Origin: Sphingomonas sp.
Lineage (GTDB): Bacteria; Pseudomonadota; Alphaproteobacteria; Sphingomonadales; Sphingomonadaceae
NCBI GenBank assembly: GCA_025935515.1
Contig: JAICVC010000002.1
Location: 1 to 42,173 of the forward strand
DNA length: 42,173 bases
Reading direction: 5' to 3'
Shown here: positions 2,496 to 8,312 of the stretch, piece after piece
How the letters are laid out: every line of letters begins with the position of its first letter
Numbering within the stretch: the stretch's first letter is position 1
Translations under genes and position numbers: made by a program
The notes under the pieces: generated by a model
What the model was told of the DNA's origin: nothing
What the model saw: only the letters and a program-made list of their open reading frames with translations
Databases searched by the model: none

Positions 2496-3374
2496 TTACG
2501 CCCGCTTGCGTGCCGGTTCCTTTTTCGCCGCCGGCTTCTTGGCGGCCGGCTTCTTGGTCTTGCCAGCCGCCTTGCCCTTCTTTTCGTCGCCGAGGCTCTT
2601 CTTGAGCGCGGCCATCAGGTCGATGACGTTAGAGCCCCTGGGCGGCGGCGCATCGGCGTCCGGGTCCTCGATGATCTTCTCGCCCTTCGCCTTCTTTTTC
2701 TCTTCGATTAGGCGATGGAGCGCGTCGACGTAGCGATTGTGGAATTCCTTCGGGTCGAACTCACCGGCCTTCCGCTCGATCAGCATCGAGGCCATGTCGA
2801 GCAGGTCCGGATCGGGCTTGGTATCGCCGATGTCGCGGAAGAAGCCCGAGCTCTTGTGGATTTCGTCGGCGTAACGGAGCGTCTCTAGCAGCAGCCCGCG
2901 CCCGCATGGCTTCAGTGCCACCACATATTCCTGCCCGCGCATCGCGAGCTGGCCGACTCCGACCTTCTTGGCGGCCTTGAGCGCGTCCCGAAGCACGACA
3001 TAGGCCTCTTCCGCGAGATCGTCGGCGGGCACGATGTAATAAGGCTTGTCGAAATAGGTCGCGTCGATGTCGTCCTCGTCGACGAACTGGACGAGGTCGA
3101 GAGTCTTGCGGCTCTCGAGCTTGACGCTGTCGATCTCCTCCGGGTCGAGCAGGATGTAGTGGCCCTTGGAGACCTCATAGCCCTTAACGATCTCGTCGCG
3201 GTCGACCGGGCCGATCCCAGGCACGACCTTCTCATATTTGATGCGCTTGCCGGTCGGCTCGTGCACCTGGTGAAACTGGATCTGGGCGCCGCTCTTGGTC
3301 GCCGGGTACAGCTCAACGGGGATCGAGACCAAGGCGAGCCGGATCTGCCCGCGCCAAATCGATCGTGCCGCCAT
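2496..3374 (-). CDS. ku: Non-homologous end-joining protein Ku
   Basis: Homodimeric ring protein that binds DNA ends and recruits LigD. The 292-residue product is of normal length and is recognisable from its first residues (ARSIWRGQIRLALVSIPVEL) through the beta-barrel core. The C-terminus is an extended Lys/Ala-rich tail (KKPAAKKPAAKKEPARKRA), as in many bacterial Ku proteins, where such tails add non-specific DNA contacts. The ATG at 3374 has a good ribosome-binding site (AAGGAG) eight bases upstream. It begins only 25 bp after the trpA stop codon, with no terminator seen between them, so read-through from the trp operon is possible. It forms a two-gene NHEJ unit with ligD. Confidence 0.97.
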   Translation of the reverse strand: MAARSIWRGQIRLALVSIPVELYPATKSGAQIQFHQVHEPTGKRIKYEKVVPGIGPVDRDEIVKGYEVSKGHYILLDPEEIDSVKLESRKTLDLVQFVDEDDIDATYFDKPYYIVPADDLAEEAYVVLRDALKAAKKVGVGQLAMRGQEYVVALKPCGRGLLLETLRYADEIHKSSGFFRDIGDTKPDPDLLDMASMLIERKAGEFDPKEFHNRYVDALHRLIEEKKKAKGEKIIEDPDADAPPPRGSNVIDLMAALKKSLGDEKKGKAAGKTKKPAAKKPAAKKEPARKRA

Positions 3375-3399: not shown

Positions 3400-4188
3400 T
3401 CAATTCATTGCGGCACCGAGTCGTTCCCGAGTGGCCGCCTTCAATGATCGTATCAGCTCCGTAACATCTTCGCCAAGACCGACTTTTTCGACGATTGCCG
3501 AGCCGCAAATGACCCCTCTCGCACCGGCCGAGACGGCGGAGCGGACGTGTTCGGGTTTGGAAATCCCAAAACCGAACACCGCAGGCGGAGCGCCGGCGGC
3601 CTGAAGGCGGCCAATCAGCCGCGAATCGAAGTGGCCGCCGGCATGGGTGCCGGTGATTCCCGCTCGGCTGACGCAATAAATATAGGCTTTCGAAAGCCTT
3701 GCGATGCGTTGGACGGTTGCGTCCGGCGTGTTGGCGGCCGCGATCAGCACCGGCTCGATGCCCCCCTGCTCCATCTTGCGAGCGAACGGATCGGCCTCCA
3801 GCGAGGGAACGTCGGCGATCAGCAGGCTGTCGGCGCCCGCCTCGGCCGCGTCGCGCATGAACCCGGTCCGAGCGGCAACGATATTGGCGTAAGTCAGGAT
3901 GCCGATCGGCACGTCGGTGTGGTGCGACCGCAACGCCGCGATGAGGTCGAGGCAATCGCCGACTCGGACTCCGGCGGCGAGCGCGCGCTGTGCGGCGGCC
4001 TGGATCACGGGCCCGTCCGCGACCGGGTCGGAGAACGGGATCCCGACCTCGATCATGTCGGCGCCGGCATCGACGGCTTGATGGAGCACTCCTGCGCTGG
4101 TTTCGAGATCGGGGTCGCCGAGCATCATGAACGCGCCGAACGCGCCTTCGCCGCCGAGCCGCTCGAACATTGCGGCATAGCGGCTCAT
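3400..4188 (-). CDS. trpA: Tryptophan synthase alpha subunit
   Basis: Cleaves indole-3-glycerol phosphate to indole and glyceraldehyde 3-phosphate; indole is channelled to TrpB. The product is 262 residues, the usual length. The active-site segment [16 protein letters not shown] carries the catalytic acids E47 and D58. Glycine-rich phosphate-binding segments follow, such as [10 protein letters not shown] and GVICGSAIV. Its ATG overlaps the trpB stop codon by 4 bp (ATGA), indicating translational coupling. It is the last biosynthetic gene of the trpDC/FBA operon and is followed after 25 bp by ku. Confidence 0.98.
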
Positions 4189-5336
4189 GCGAGCAGCCTT
4201 TCCGCTTGCGCGACATCCTTGTCGCCGCGTCCAGAGAGACCAACGAGGATCGCACTGTTCGGTTCGGCTTGCGCGAGCTTCAGCGCGTGGGCGAGCGCAT
4301 GCGCGGATTCGAACGCGCAGATGATGCCCTCGCTTTCGGCCAACGCCTTGAACGCCGCGAGCGCTTCGGCGTCGGTCGCACCGACATATTCGGCACGGCC
4401 GCTGTCCTTCAAATGCGCGTGCTCCGGGCCGACCGCCGGATAGTCGAGTCCGGCCGACACCGACCAGGTATCGGTTATCTGCCCGTCGTCGTCTTGCAGG
4501 AGGTAGGTCTCGGCGCCGTGGAGAATGCCCCGCACACCGCGCAGAAGCGTGGCACCATGCTCGTCGCCGTCGAGGCCCTTGCCGGCGGCCTCCACGCCGA
4601 TCAGCTGCACGCTATCGTCGAGAAAATCCGCGAACAGCCCGATTGCGTTCGACCCGCCGCCGACACAGGCGACAACGGCGTCGGGCAGCCGCTCCAATTG
4701 CTCGACGATCTGAGCCCGCGCTTCGCGGCCGATCACCCGCTGGAACTCCCGCACCATCGTCGGGAACGGGTGCGGGCCTGCGGCCGTCCCGAGCAAATAA
4801 TGGGTAGTCTCGAAGCTCGCCGACCAATCACGCAGCGCCTCGTTGATCGCATCCTTGAGCGTACGCCCACCGCTCTCGACGGGAATGACCTCGGCGCCCA
4901 TCAACTGCATCCGAAAGACATTGAGCTGCTGCCGCTCGACGTCCTCGGCACCCATGTAGATGACCGTCTCGAAGCCGAGCAGTGCTCCCACGAGCGCCGT
5001 GGCGACACCGTGCTGGCCGGCGCCGGTCTCGGCGATCAGCCGGGTCTTGGCCATGCGCCTGGCAAGGAGACCCTGCCCGAGCACCTGGTTGGTCTTGTGT
5101 GCGCCGCCGTGGAGTAGGTCCTCGCGCTTCAGATAGATATTGCCGGGCAGGTTGCGACAGCGGGTCAGGGGGGTCGGGCGGCCGGCGTAATTGGCGAGCA
5201 GATCGTTGAGTTCGCTCGTGAAGTGCGGATCATCCTGCGCGTCGAGAAATGCCGCCTCCAACTGCTCGAGCGCCGGAACGAGGATTTCCGGGACGTAGCA
5301 GCCGCCGAAGCGGCCGAAGCGGCCGTTCAGGCGCAT
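4185..5336 (-). CDS. trpB: Tryptophan synthase beta subunit
   Basis: PLP enzyme condensing indole with L-serine to give tryptophan. The 383-residue product starts with the usual [14 protein letters not shown]. It contains the PLP-lysine motif HGGAHKTN with K81, and the phosphate-binding loop GGGSNAIG. Length and motif order are typical for TrpB1. Its start overlaps the end of the trpC/F fusion by 10 bp and its stop overlaps trpA by 4 bp, so the whole operon is translationally coupled. TrpA and TrpB form the alpha2-beta2 complex. Confidence 0.98.
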
Positions 5337-6712
5337 GCGCGGAGCCGCTGACGCGATGTTGGCCGCAGAACCTCGAACAGCGCCGCGATCTTATCGCGCG
5401 ACTTGCGGCCCGGTCGGACGTCGAGCGCGGAGCCGACGTCGATCGCGTAAGCACCGGCGTGCGTCGCCGCGCGCGCGTTGGTGGGCCCGATCCCGCCTGC
5501 GACGATCGACCGCGACAAATCAGGATGGCCTTTCACCAGACTCCAGTCGAAGCTGCGCCCGCTCCCGCCATCGCCATTGTCGAAGACGAGGCGGTCGCCG
5601 CCGCGGCTGACCAGCGGCTCGCGGCCGACACTGAGCGCGGTCCAGATTTCGCAGGCCCACGGCAGCTCGCGCCGAAGCGCACGGACATATTCGACGTCCT
5701 CGCGACCGTGCAGCTGGACCGCGTGCACATTCATCAAAGTCGCAATGTCGGCGACCATGCCGAGCGGCGCATCGCGGAACACGCCGACCGGGAGCATGCC
5801 CGTTTGGCGTGCGGTTGCGGCCAGCGGCGCGGCTTGCTGTGCCGTGACATGCCGGGGGCTGCCTGGCACGAACACGAAGCCGGCGAATGCCGCTGGCCGG
5901 GCGGCGCGCACATCCGCGCCGCAATTCAATCCGCAGATTTTGGTGCGGCCGAACATCAGTTCCCGCGCGGCCCACGCCGGTTCACTAGCACGCATCAACG
6001 ACGAGCCGACCAGGAAGCCGTCGACCAGTGGAGACAGACGTTCGACGTCAGCGCGATCGCCAATCCCCGATTCCGACACGAGCAGCCGATCCGGCGCCAG
6101 CAAGGCCAGGCGCCTGGTGGTCGAAAGGTCGATGGTGAGGTCGCGAAGGTCGCGGTTGTTGATGCCGATCAGCGGTGCACCGAGCGCCAGTGCCCGCCGC
6201 ATCTCTGACTCATCATGCACCTCGACCAGCGCGTCCATGCCGAAACAGCCGGCTTCCGCGATCATCTCGCGCGCGTTCCCGTCGTCGAGCAACGAAAGCA
6301 TAACCAGGATCGCATCCGCTCCGGCGATGCGAGCCTCGGCAACCTGCCGGCGGTCGACGAAAAAGTCCTTGGCCAGTATGGGGCCATCGAACGCGCCACG
6401 GGCGGCTGCCAGGTCGTCGAGCGAACCGCCGAAGAATGTGCGGTCGGTCAGGACGCTGAGCGCATCGGCGACTCCGTCGTAGCCGCGAGCCAGGGCCGCG
6501 GGGTCCGCGTCGAGGCGGATTGCGCCACCCGATGGAGATGCTTTCTTGATCTCCAGAATGAAGCGCGCGCCGGGCTTGCGGATCGCAGCAGCGAGGCTGC
6601 GGCTGGTGGGCCGAGCGCGATCGCGGAGCGCGTCGAGCGATACGCCGTCGTACCGCAGCCCCAGCTCCTCGCGCTTGGCGGCGGCGATCTTGCCGAGCAC
6701 GCCTTCAGCCAC
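5327..6712 (-). CDS. trpC: Fused indole-3-glycerol-phosphate synthase / phosphoribosylanthranilate isomerase
   Basis: A single uninterrupted frame of about 461 residues encodes two (beta/alpha)8 enzymes in tandem. Residues 1 to about 253 are TrpC ([35 protein letters not shown]). From about 255 on it is TrpF, beginning [13 protein letters not shown] with the catalytic Cys and carrying [11 protein letters not shown] with the catalytic Asp. The domain order is the same as in E. coli TrpC. The frame could extend upstream to 6808, but that part lies inside trpD. I chose the GTG at 6712, preceded by GAGG six bases upstream and giving an 8-bp overlap with the trpD stop. The product would carry out steps three and four of the chorismate-to-tryptophan branch. 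In most alphaproteobacteria trpF is a separate gene before trpB, so the fusion is notable. The standard symbol for the second half is trpF. Confidence 0.95.
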
Positions 6713-7772
6713 GGCTGGCCTCGATGAAGGAGTCGAGCACGGCGCGCGCTCGCCGCGAACGCATCGCTTCCATGGCGAAGCCCACGCCGTCCTTGAGATC
6801 GGCGACACGGCCCGCAGTCATCAGCAGCGCGCCGGCATTCAGTGCGACGATTGCGATATCGGCCCGTCCCCCGATCCCCGACAATATGTCTCGGAGCCGG
6901 CGCGCGTTTTCGTCCGGCGCTCCGCCGGCGATCCGATCGACGGGCATGCGCTCGAGGCCGGCTTGCTCGGGGGTGATTTCGAGCTCCTTCAGCTTGCCGT
7001 CACGCAGCGATACGGCCTTGGTGAAGCCGTGAAGCGCGACTTCGTCCAGCCCGGAGCCGTGAACCACGAGGGCACGTTCCACGCCGAGCGCGCACAGCGT
7101 CTCTGCAATCGGCCGCAACAGCTTCGGGTCGGCGACGCCGAGCAACTGCACCCTCGGCCGAGCGGGGTTCAGGCAGGGGCCCAGCAAATTCATGATCGTG
7201 CGCACCTTGAGAGCGCGGCGGACCGGCCCCGCATGGGCAATCCCCGGATGATACCTGGGCGCGAGCAGGAAGCAGAAACCGGTCTGGTCGAGGATTTCGC
7301 GCGATTCCATCGGGCTCAGATCGAGCCGCGCGCCGAGCGCTTCGAGCACGTCGGCCGAGCCGCATTTCGAGGTGAATGACCGGTTGCCGTGCTTGATGAC
7401 CGGCAGGCCGCAGGCCGCAGCGACGAAGGCCGCTGCGGTGGAGACGTTGATCGACCCCGAGAAATCGCCGCCAGTGCCGCAGCTGTCGGCGAACAGGGTC
7501 GCCGGCGACGGGAACGGGCTGGCCGCCGCGCGCAACGCTTCCGCCGCGCCAATCAGTTCCTCGGCGGTTTCGCCTTTAACTCGGAGCGCGACGAAGGCCG
7601 CCGCCATCAAGGGCTCGCTGAGCGAACCGTCCACGATGCGCGCGAACAAGCTACGCGTCGAAGCGCGGTCGAGATCCTCGCCGTCGAGGAGGCGGGTGAT
7701 TGCGGCCTCAGCGTCGGGATCGGCGGCAGGCGCGGCGACCGCAGCACGTGGAAAAGTCAGAACCTGGTTCAT
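6705..7772 (-). CDS. trpD: Anthranilate phosphoribosyltransferase
   Basis: Transfers phosphoribosyl from PRPP to anthranilate, the second step of the tryptophan branch. The 355-residue product has the PRPP-binding GTGGD loop at 99-103 and the KHGNRS segment at 127-132. An N-terminal extension of about 20 residues, rich in Ala and Pro, precedes the helical domain. The ATG at 7772 has an AGGTGAG ribosome-binding site eight bases upstream. That site lies between the T-run of the upstream terminator and the start codon, so trpD is only expressed if the attenuator is read through. It is the first structural gene of the operon; trpE and trpG are not in the window. Confidence 0.97.
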   Translation of the reverse strand: MNQVLTFPRAAVAAPAADPDAEAAITRLLDGEDLDRASTRSLFARIVDGSLSEPLMAAAFVALRVKGETAEELIGAAEALRAAASPFPSPATLFADSCGTGGDFSGSINVSTAAAFVAAACGLPVIKHGNRSFTSKCGSADVLEALGARLDLSPMESREILDQTGFCFLLAPRYHPGIAHAGPVRRALKVRTIMNLLGPCLNPARPRVQLLGVADPKLLRPIAETLCALGVERALVVHGSGLDEVALHGFTKAVSLRDGKLKELEITPEQAGLERMPVDRIAGGAPDENARRLRDILSGIGGRADIAIVALNAGALLMTAGRVADLKDGVGFAMEAMRSRRARAVLDSFIEASRG

Positions 7773-7790: not shown

Positions 7791-7818
7791 AAAAAAGCCC
7801 GCCGGTCGGCGGGCGGGC
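7791..7818 (-). terminator. Intrinsic terminator acting as the trp attenuator
   Basis: On the minus strand a perfect inverted repeat (GCCCGCCG / CGGCGGGC, at 7797-7814) is followed at once by six T residues at 7791-7796. It folds as at least a 7-bp GC stem with a 4-nt loop. It lies between the Trp-rich leader peptide (stop at 7843) and trpD (start at 7772), the position expected for a transcription attenuator. A second, weaker inverted repeat (TGATCG / CGATCA, 7825-7845) overlaps the leader stop codon and could be part of the alternative folding. Confidence 0.85.
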
Positions 7819-7842
7819 AGTCGATGATCGGGTGCTAAGCGA

Positions 7843-7929
7843 TCAGTCGCGCCATCGCGCCGCAAGCGTCGCCCCGCGCCACCAGAAGCGGGCGGTCGAA
7901 GTTGCAGCGATGGCGATCAGGTTCGTCAT
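7843..7929 (-). CDS. trpL: Tryptophan operon leader peptide
   Basis: A 28-codon reading frame directly upstream of the terminator encodes a peptide with Trp at positions 16, 17 and 26 (segment RFWWRGA, then RWRD at the end). Tandem Trp codons before an intrinsic terminator and a trp gene are the signature of ribosome-mediated attenuation. Scarcity of charged tRNA-Trp stalls the ribosome there and favours read-through. No Shine-Dalgarno sequence precedes the ATG, but a promoter-like sequence ends only 10 bases upstream, so the mRNA is predicted to begin at or within a few bases of the ATG. A leaderless trpL is known in rhizobia. The peptide is longer than the rhizobial one. The assignment rests on position, Trp content and terminator, not on homology. 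Confidence 0.8.
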   Translation of the reverse strand: MTNLIAIAATSTARFWWRGATLAARWRD

Positions 7930-7939
7930 GCGAATCGCG

Positions 7940-7968
7940 TGGTAAGGCACAGCGTCCGGGTTGGTCAA
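7940..7968 (-). promoter_or_regulatory. Candidate promoter of the trp operon
   Basis: On the minus strand, TTGACC at 7963-7968 is followed after exactly 17 bases by TTACCA at 7940-7945. The first matches the sigma-70 -35 consensus well; the second matches the -10 consensus only in part. A start of transcription 6-8 bases further would fall at about 7932-7934, that is, within a few bases of the trpL ATG at 7929. Confidence 0.55.
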
Positions 7969-8019: not shown

Positions 8020-8093
8020 GCGGGTGTAGCTCAATGGTAGAGCAGAAGCCTTCCAAGCTTACGACGAGGGTTCGATTCCCTTCACCCGCTCCA
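8020..8093 (+). tRNA. tRNA-Gly (anticodon TCC)
   Basis: Cloverleaf visible by eye: acceptor GCGGGTG pairs with CACCCGC, the D arm is GCTC..GAGC, and the anticodon loop CTTCCAA carries TCC. The T arm AGGGTTCGATTCCCT has the conserved TTCGA core. The 3' CCA is encoded at 8091-8093. The last six bases (GCTCCA) are also the first bases of a long hairpin that continues to 8130. Confidence 0.96.
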
Positions 8094-8226: not shown

Positions 8227-8312
8227 GGAGAGGTGGCCGAGTGGTTAAAGGCAGCAGACTGTAAATCTGCCCGCGCAAGCGTACGCTGGTTCGAATCCAG
8301 CCCTCTCCACCA
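8227..8312 (+). tRNA. tRNA-Tyr (anticodon GTA)
   Basis: Class II tRNA of 86 bases with a long variable arm (CCCGCGCAAGCGTACG region). Acceptor GGAGAGG pairs with CCTCTCC. The anticodon stem-loop CAGACTGTAAATCTG carries GTA. The T arm CTGGTTCGAATCCAG is perfect and the CCA end is encoded at 8310-8312. It follows tRNA-Gly by 133 bases on the same strand. Confidence 0.97.

Follow-up and report, generated by a model that had tools for sequence, protein, structure and literature searches.

The tryptophan (Trp) leader that precedes trpD in the window, by which we mean the whole 42,173-nt stretch of Sphingomonas sp. DNA analyzed here, is a genuine element, and its reading in the initial annotation is largely right. 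Judging from sequence and its comparison with relatives, a leaderless ribosome-mediated Trp attenuator very probably controls trpD-trpCF-trpB-trpA. The mechanism is ordinary ribosome-mediated attenuation. The interesting part is the physiology of the operon, together with the Trp leaders that stand before a TonB-dependent receptor.

The leader open reading frame (ORF) lies on the minus strand, as do the window features given below unless otherwise noted. It comprises 28 codons (MTNLIAIAATSTARFWWRGATLAARWRD) and runs from an ATG at 7929 to a TGA stop at 7845–7843, with Trp at codons 16 and 17 (7884–7879) and 26 (7854–7852); the sequence confirmed this frame and its Trp positions as first claimed. 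The ORF is kept in relatives and is matched by a covariance model, and the tandem codons 16–17 are the presumed sensing codons. Upstream, a −35 box (TTGACC, 7968–7963) and a −10 box (TTACCA, 7945–7940) are separated by 17 nt, and 10 nt separate the −10 box from the ATG, in full agreement with the initial annotation; this distance leaves a 5′ UTR of approximately 0–4 nt. The spacing of the −35 box is kept across leaders, and the position of the −10 box is occupied by CTACCA, TTAGGA or CTAGGA in relatives. TTGAC occurred 34–41 nt upstream of an in-frame ATG or GTG in 46 of 48 leaders, compared with 0.77 expected from dinucleotide shuffles. The TTGAC-to-start distances of the 48 leaders peaked at 35–39 nt with a mode of 36 nt, a distance from the −35 box that would make the A of the start codon the first transcribed base. 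In the clade of the window the distance is mostly 38–39 nt, i.e., approximately 3 nt are left before the ATG. Based on this spacing, leaderless transcription of the Trp leader is well supported, and the fixed −35 distance favors the earlier proposal that the transcript starts almost at the ATG. No Shine-Dalgarno sequence precedes the leader, as had been noted, whereas trpD itself has AGGTGA (7784–7779). An AGG site was present before the trpD start in 12 of 12 close relatives and was mostly absent before leaders. Where some leaders gave Shine-Dalgarno-like scores, the motif lay within or adjoining the −10 region. Two tRNA genes on the plus strand (8020–8090 and 8227–8309, with anticodons Gly-TCC and Tyr-GTA, respectively, read by eye) diverge from the leader promoter, and the first of these is also found upstream in some relatives (L030, L086–L088).

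The leader stands directly before trpD, followed by trpC-trpF, trpB and trpA, which agrees with the gene order first described. trpD encodes anthranilate phosphoribosyltransferase (6705–7772, ATG at 7772; TIGR01245, 4e-113) and shows pN/pS of 0.16–0.30 against the closest relatives, indicating purifying selection. The trpC-trpF fusion (5327–6712; NF006945, 4.2e-138) has a probable GTG start at approximately 6712 within a frame that is open to 6808. trpB (4185–5336; TIGR00263, 1e-176) and trpA (3400–4188; TIGR00262, 2e-73) complete the operon. A Ku gene (nonhomologous end joining, NHEJ; 2496–3374) lies on the strand of trpA, begins approximately 25 nt past its end, and could be cotranscribed with the trp operon.

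Between the leader and trpD lies a stem-loop, GCCCGCC-GACC-GGCGGGC (7814–7797), followed by six Ts (7796–7791). The initial annotation had described an 8-bp GC repeat and six Ts; the T tract stood, and the stem has seven G-C pairs, in either of two registers. The gap from leader stop to stem is 28 nt, within the 20-odd bases given before. Shuffles of the region were expected to contain 1.4 terminator-like hairpins and one was found, so that the terminator alone is not above chance. It is judged real because of its conservation in relatives, whose WW leaders carry a like terminator upstream of trpD, and not because of its own statistics in GC-rich DNA.

The minimum free energy (MFE) fold of the leader had a z-score of −2.78. 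Folded alone, the leader formed a long hairpin 1:2 that joins codons 5–11 with codons 20–27 (7915–7850), a small hairpin across the stop, and the terminator. Hairpin 1:2 was paired in 86% of cells across 12 close relatives and showed no compensatory changes. For the stalled state, a ribosome was set at Trp16 with the 3′ arm of the terminator still unmade. Under this condition essentially one common long antiterminator was predicted in 12 of 12 close relatives. Its 5′ arm, region 2 (GCGGCGCGATGGCGCGACTGATCG, 7863–7840), consists of codons 23–28 with the stop and three further bases, including Trp codon 26, and upon stalling at WW it pairs with its 3′ arm, region 3 (CGATCATCGACTGCCCGCCCGC, 7830–7809), which takes in most of the terminator 5′ arm. 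The TGATCG/CGATCA hairpin recognized earlier is present and forms the tip of this longer structure; the full antiterminator, which could not be settled by eye at that time, was thus recovered as a complete predicted fold. The alternative folds that underlie the switch were then scored across leaders, a switch being counted when the mean pairing of the terminator 5′ arm was above 0.5 in the stalled state and fell below 0.5 when the ribosome occupied the stop. This predicted switch was found in 42 of 47 leaders (89%) compared with 32% of shuffles. In this simple model, 5 of the 47, including three from Sorangium, gave no clean switch.

A 25-nt stretch of region 2, TGCGGCGCGATGGCGCGACTGATCG, is invariant in the 12 close relatives, synonymous sites and post-stop bases included. 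The codons that separate WW from region 2 vary among the same genomes. Invariance through synonymous sites fits selection on RNA pairing, and Trp26, which lies inside region 2, is therefore probably a by-product rather than a sensor. The antiterminator and terminator pairs showed no compensatory changes; their arms are nearly invariant, so covariation is uninformative on these pairs. At equilibrium, the stalled leaders of the close clade favor the terminator fold over the antiterminator by approximately 2–9 kcal/mol, which means that the switch would need cotranscriptional folding. When the entire stalled transcript was folded to equilibrium, no antitermination was obtained in the window's own clade, and folding prior to synthesis of the terminator 3′ arm revealed it.

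In the model that we propose, transcription would begin at the leader AUG or a few bases upstream of it, and the ribosome would initiate without a Shine-Dalgarno sequence. When charged tRNA-Trp is scarce, the ribosome would stall at codons 16–17 and hairpin 1:2 could not form. Region 2, freed by the stall, would pair with region 3, and RNA polymerase would continue into trpD. When Trp is plentiful, a ribosome at the stop codon would mask region 2 and the terminator would form. If the leader is not translated, region 2 would be held in hairpin 1:2 and the terminator would form as well. We infer from these sequence features that the operon responds to Trp.

To follow the leader beyond the window, trpD was located in 60 related genomes and the upstream regions were inspected. 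Of the genomes of the same genus, 27 have trpD as their first trp gene and sequence available upstream of it, and all 27 have a Trp leader before trpD. One of the 27 (G006, MTNLIAIPGRRLRHWRRNAGARWHG) is degenerate, without a T run of five. Seven genomes have trpG immediately upstream of trpD, and no Trp leader was found at trpD in these. Named relatives, namely Sphingosinicella, Sphingomonas parva and S. deserti, also have Trp leaders before trpD. The leader subtypes (with endings AARWRD, AARWRGW, AARWRWR and others) share little besides their Trp clusters. A comparison across Sphingomonadales for conserved Trp codons had been proposed with the initial annotation; when it was made, WW, WWW or W.WW was found in nearly all leaders. 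The leader of Sphingomonas sp. URHD0057 (L086, approximately 2847–2990; MTNLVAIAAATTAHLWCGEFTHAARWRD) retains one Trp of the tandem pair, W16 (WC). Five Sorangium loci (L107–L111) encode trpD homologues 54–55% identical to that of the window and have WW leaders, with TTGAC exactly 36 nt upstream of the ATG where measured (L107, L109, L111). Leader and operon may therefore be either deeply conserved or a product of transfer.

Trp leaders were also found at other genes when a covariance model of 12 leaders was run over 61 genomes. In trpE-bearing relatives, a leader built like that of trpD precedes aroF (DAHP synthase)-trpE-trpG at 6 of 6 loci with a readable aroF start (L179 in G004, L180 in G012, L181 in G010, L187 in G006, L189 in G031, and L190 in G017). 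Within the trpE-less clade, three members have a leader upstream of a TonB-dependent receptor gene (PF00593/PF07715) followed by an Amidohydro_3 gene (L184/L191 in G021, L193/L223 in G030, and L185/L192 in G035). These leaders have TTGAC 36–38 nt before the ATG, and a terminator and predicted switch as at trpD. Their peptides differ strongly (WWRW, WRW, WWRWSW) and the build is retained. No receptor orthologue was found in the window's own genome, which is 77% complete. Two further model matches were rejected as chance, one being a tRNA plus terminator (G022:74728) and the other lying inside an open reading frame (G051:374925). Apart from the Trp leaders, G023 has two copies (L182 and L183, approximately 250–500) of a leader, MTFLIARASYYRPFTVGSS, in which Tyr codons stand in tandem; a terminator and phenylalanine 4-hydroxylase follow, which makes it a possible Tyr attenuator.

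Most of the many TonB receptors in these bacteria have no assigned substrate. From a Trp leader upstream of such a receptor, a Trp-related substrate can be predicted for an otherwise orphan outer-membrane transporter. There is precedent in Sphingomonadales for TonB transporters being regulated by amino acids, namely the HutC (histidine) regulon (PMC5343134).

The enzymes upstream of anthranilate are missing from the clade of the window. No chorismate-binding protein was found in the genome of the window, a 77%-complete assembly. Three near-complete genomes with the leader type of the window (G014, G021, G022) have no chorismate-binding protein and no trpG above the cut-off, and a fourth relative (G029) gave no trpE-family match. 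Sphingomonas sp. URHD0057 is an isolate whose TrpD is 82% identical to that of the window, and PF00425 was not found in it or in two further near relatives; URHD0057 was scored for PF00425 only, and loss of pabB and trpG was scored in G014, G021 and G022. Chorismate synthase (aroC) is also missing in the clade of the window. For aroA, the trpE-less clade has a weak family paralogue only, and true aroA is missing. The searches for chorismate-binding/trpE-type proteins, trpG, aroC and aroA gave matches in 14 of 14 control genomes. Loss of aroC, true aroA and trpE with retention of trpD-CF-B-A and kynureninase was seen in G014, G021, G022, G025, G029, G030, G033, G035 and others, and genomes of family f2 (G037, G044, G060) are likewise without aroC. 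With the upstream enzymes missing, the operon is usable only from anthranilate or later intermediates.

Kynureninase makes anthranilate from kynurenine. It was found above the cut-off in 14 of 16 trpE-less members of the genus compared with 1 of 21 trpE-bearing members (Fisher p = 2.7e-7, uncorrected for relatedness). The gene, kynU, is unlinked to the trp operon and adjoins dcd. Tryptophan dioxygenase homologues below the cut-off occur genus-wide and do not discriminate between the two groups. Since the closest relatives are without trpE, trpG and aroC, trpD-trpCF-trpB-trpA more likely serves in anthranilate salvage than as the lower part of an intact pathway. We infer that in this role the operon would make Trp from anthranilate that is imported or is formed from kynurenine via kynureninase.

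Other explanations of these results were weighed. The salvage role might be wrong while the attenuator is right, with anthranilate supplied by an unrecognized enzyme or with trpE and trpG located in unassembled parts of a genome that is 77% complete. We regard this as unlikely because the complete or near-complete relatives G014, G021, G022 and G029, as well as URHD0057, have no chorismate-binding or trpE-type proteins, and the first three also lack trpG, aroC and true aroA, all of which were matched in every control genome.

The remaining alternatives concern the leader itself. It could act chiefly in trans as a small RNA or peptide, in the manner of rnTrpL/peTrpL, with cis attenuation of trpD being minor. 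The terminated trpL RNA of S. meliloti lowers the stability of trpDC mRNA in trans and the leader peptide acts on a multidrug operon (PMC7298713), and the strong conservation of the leader RNA would suit such a function. However, the element abuts trpD with the terminator in between and is restricted to operons that begin with trpD, and in joined gene sets the leader stands before aroF instead. The leader peptides also differ greatly among subclades, and a chiefly trans-acting element is thus very improbable. It is harder still to maintain that promoter and terminator are ordinary ones, that the Trp-rich ORF between them arose by chance, and that the conserved 25 nt belong to some other RNA element. 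Terminator-like hairpins are expected by chance in such a GC-rich region, but Trp clusters, promoter spacing and the fold switch are kept across genera, which nearly excludes this explanation. Cis attenuation of trpD-trpCF-trpB-trpA by the leader is the reading that we retain.

Herein, a wider picture can be drawn, with more reserve. The small-genome Sphingomonas-like clade may have lost the shikimate end together with anthranilate and PABA synthase and may live on scavenged aromatics, with trpDCFBA serving anthranilate/kynurenine salvage. In some members, the Trp-attenuator regulon would include a TonB-dependent receptor and an amidohydrolase that import a source of Trp, which might be free Trp, kynurenine or a conjugate. 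We hold this combined picture as tentative, a real possibility that falls a little short of probable. The clade would provide a natural case of amino-acid attenuation retained on a pathway without its first enzyme, and its dependence on anthranilate or kynurenine is directly testable in an isolate.

Of the features that define a Trp attenuator, those of sequence and fold were found here: a tandem-Trp leader ORF before trp genes, an intervening terminator and, by prediction, a mutually exclusive antiterminator. The Rfam model RF00513 (Trp_leader) scored 18.7 bits in the window and 25.7 bits in a relative (L029), below its gathering cut-off of 41. As in the E. coli-type trp attenuator, there are tandem Trp codons and alternative 1:2, 2:3 and 3:4 pairings. 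Unlike the E. coli type, there is no Shine-Dalgarno sequence, and region 2 extends over the last codons of the leader ORF, among them an extra Trp codon. In the open-access literature, we found no description of a trp attenuator for either trpD or a TonB receptor of Sphingomonadales.

The rhizobial trpL of Sinorhizobium, Agrobacterium and Bradyrhizobium is a leaderless attenuator upstream of trpE(G) (PMC7298713). The leader of the window resembles it in a transcript start at or near the AUG (here judged by promoter spacing), in tandem Trp codons and in a terminator before trp genes. It differs in controlling trpD-CF-B-A in cis rather than trpE(G), and in its length of 28 codons compared with 14–19, with peptide similarity limited to WW. 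While rnTrpL of S. meliloti acts on trpDC in trans, trpD of the window would be under its leader in cis, and the genomes nearest the window have no trpE at all, unlike rhizobial trpL hosts. Leaderless Trp attenuation would thus be extended from rhizobial trpE(G) to trpD in Sphingomonadales, with the switch resolved by prediction. Chlamydia caviae, C. felis and C. pecorum have a trp operon without anthranilate synthase and with kynU, and a possible WW leader was noted in C. felis (PMC3937554). As in Chlamydia, trpD to trpA are retained, anthranilate synthase is lost (in the complete relatives), and kynureninase is a possible source of anthranilate. Unlike in Chlamydia, kynU lies outside the trp operon, these are environmental organisms, and an attenuator fold of the leader was resolved by prediction.
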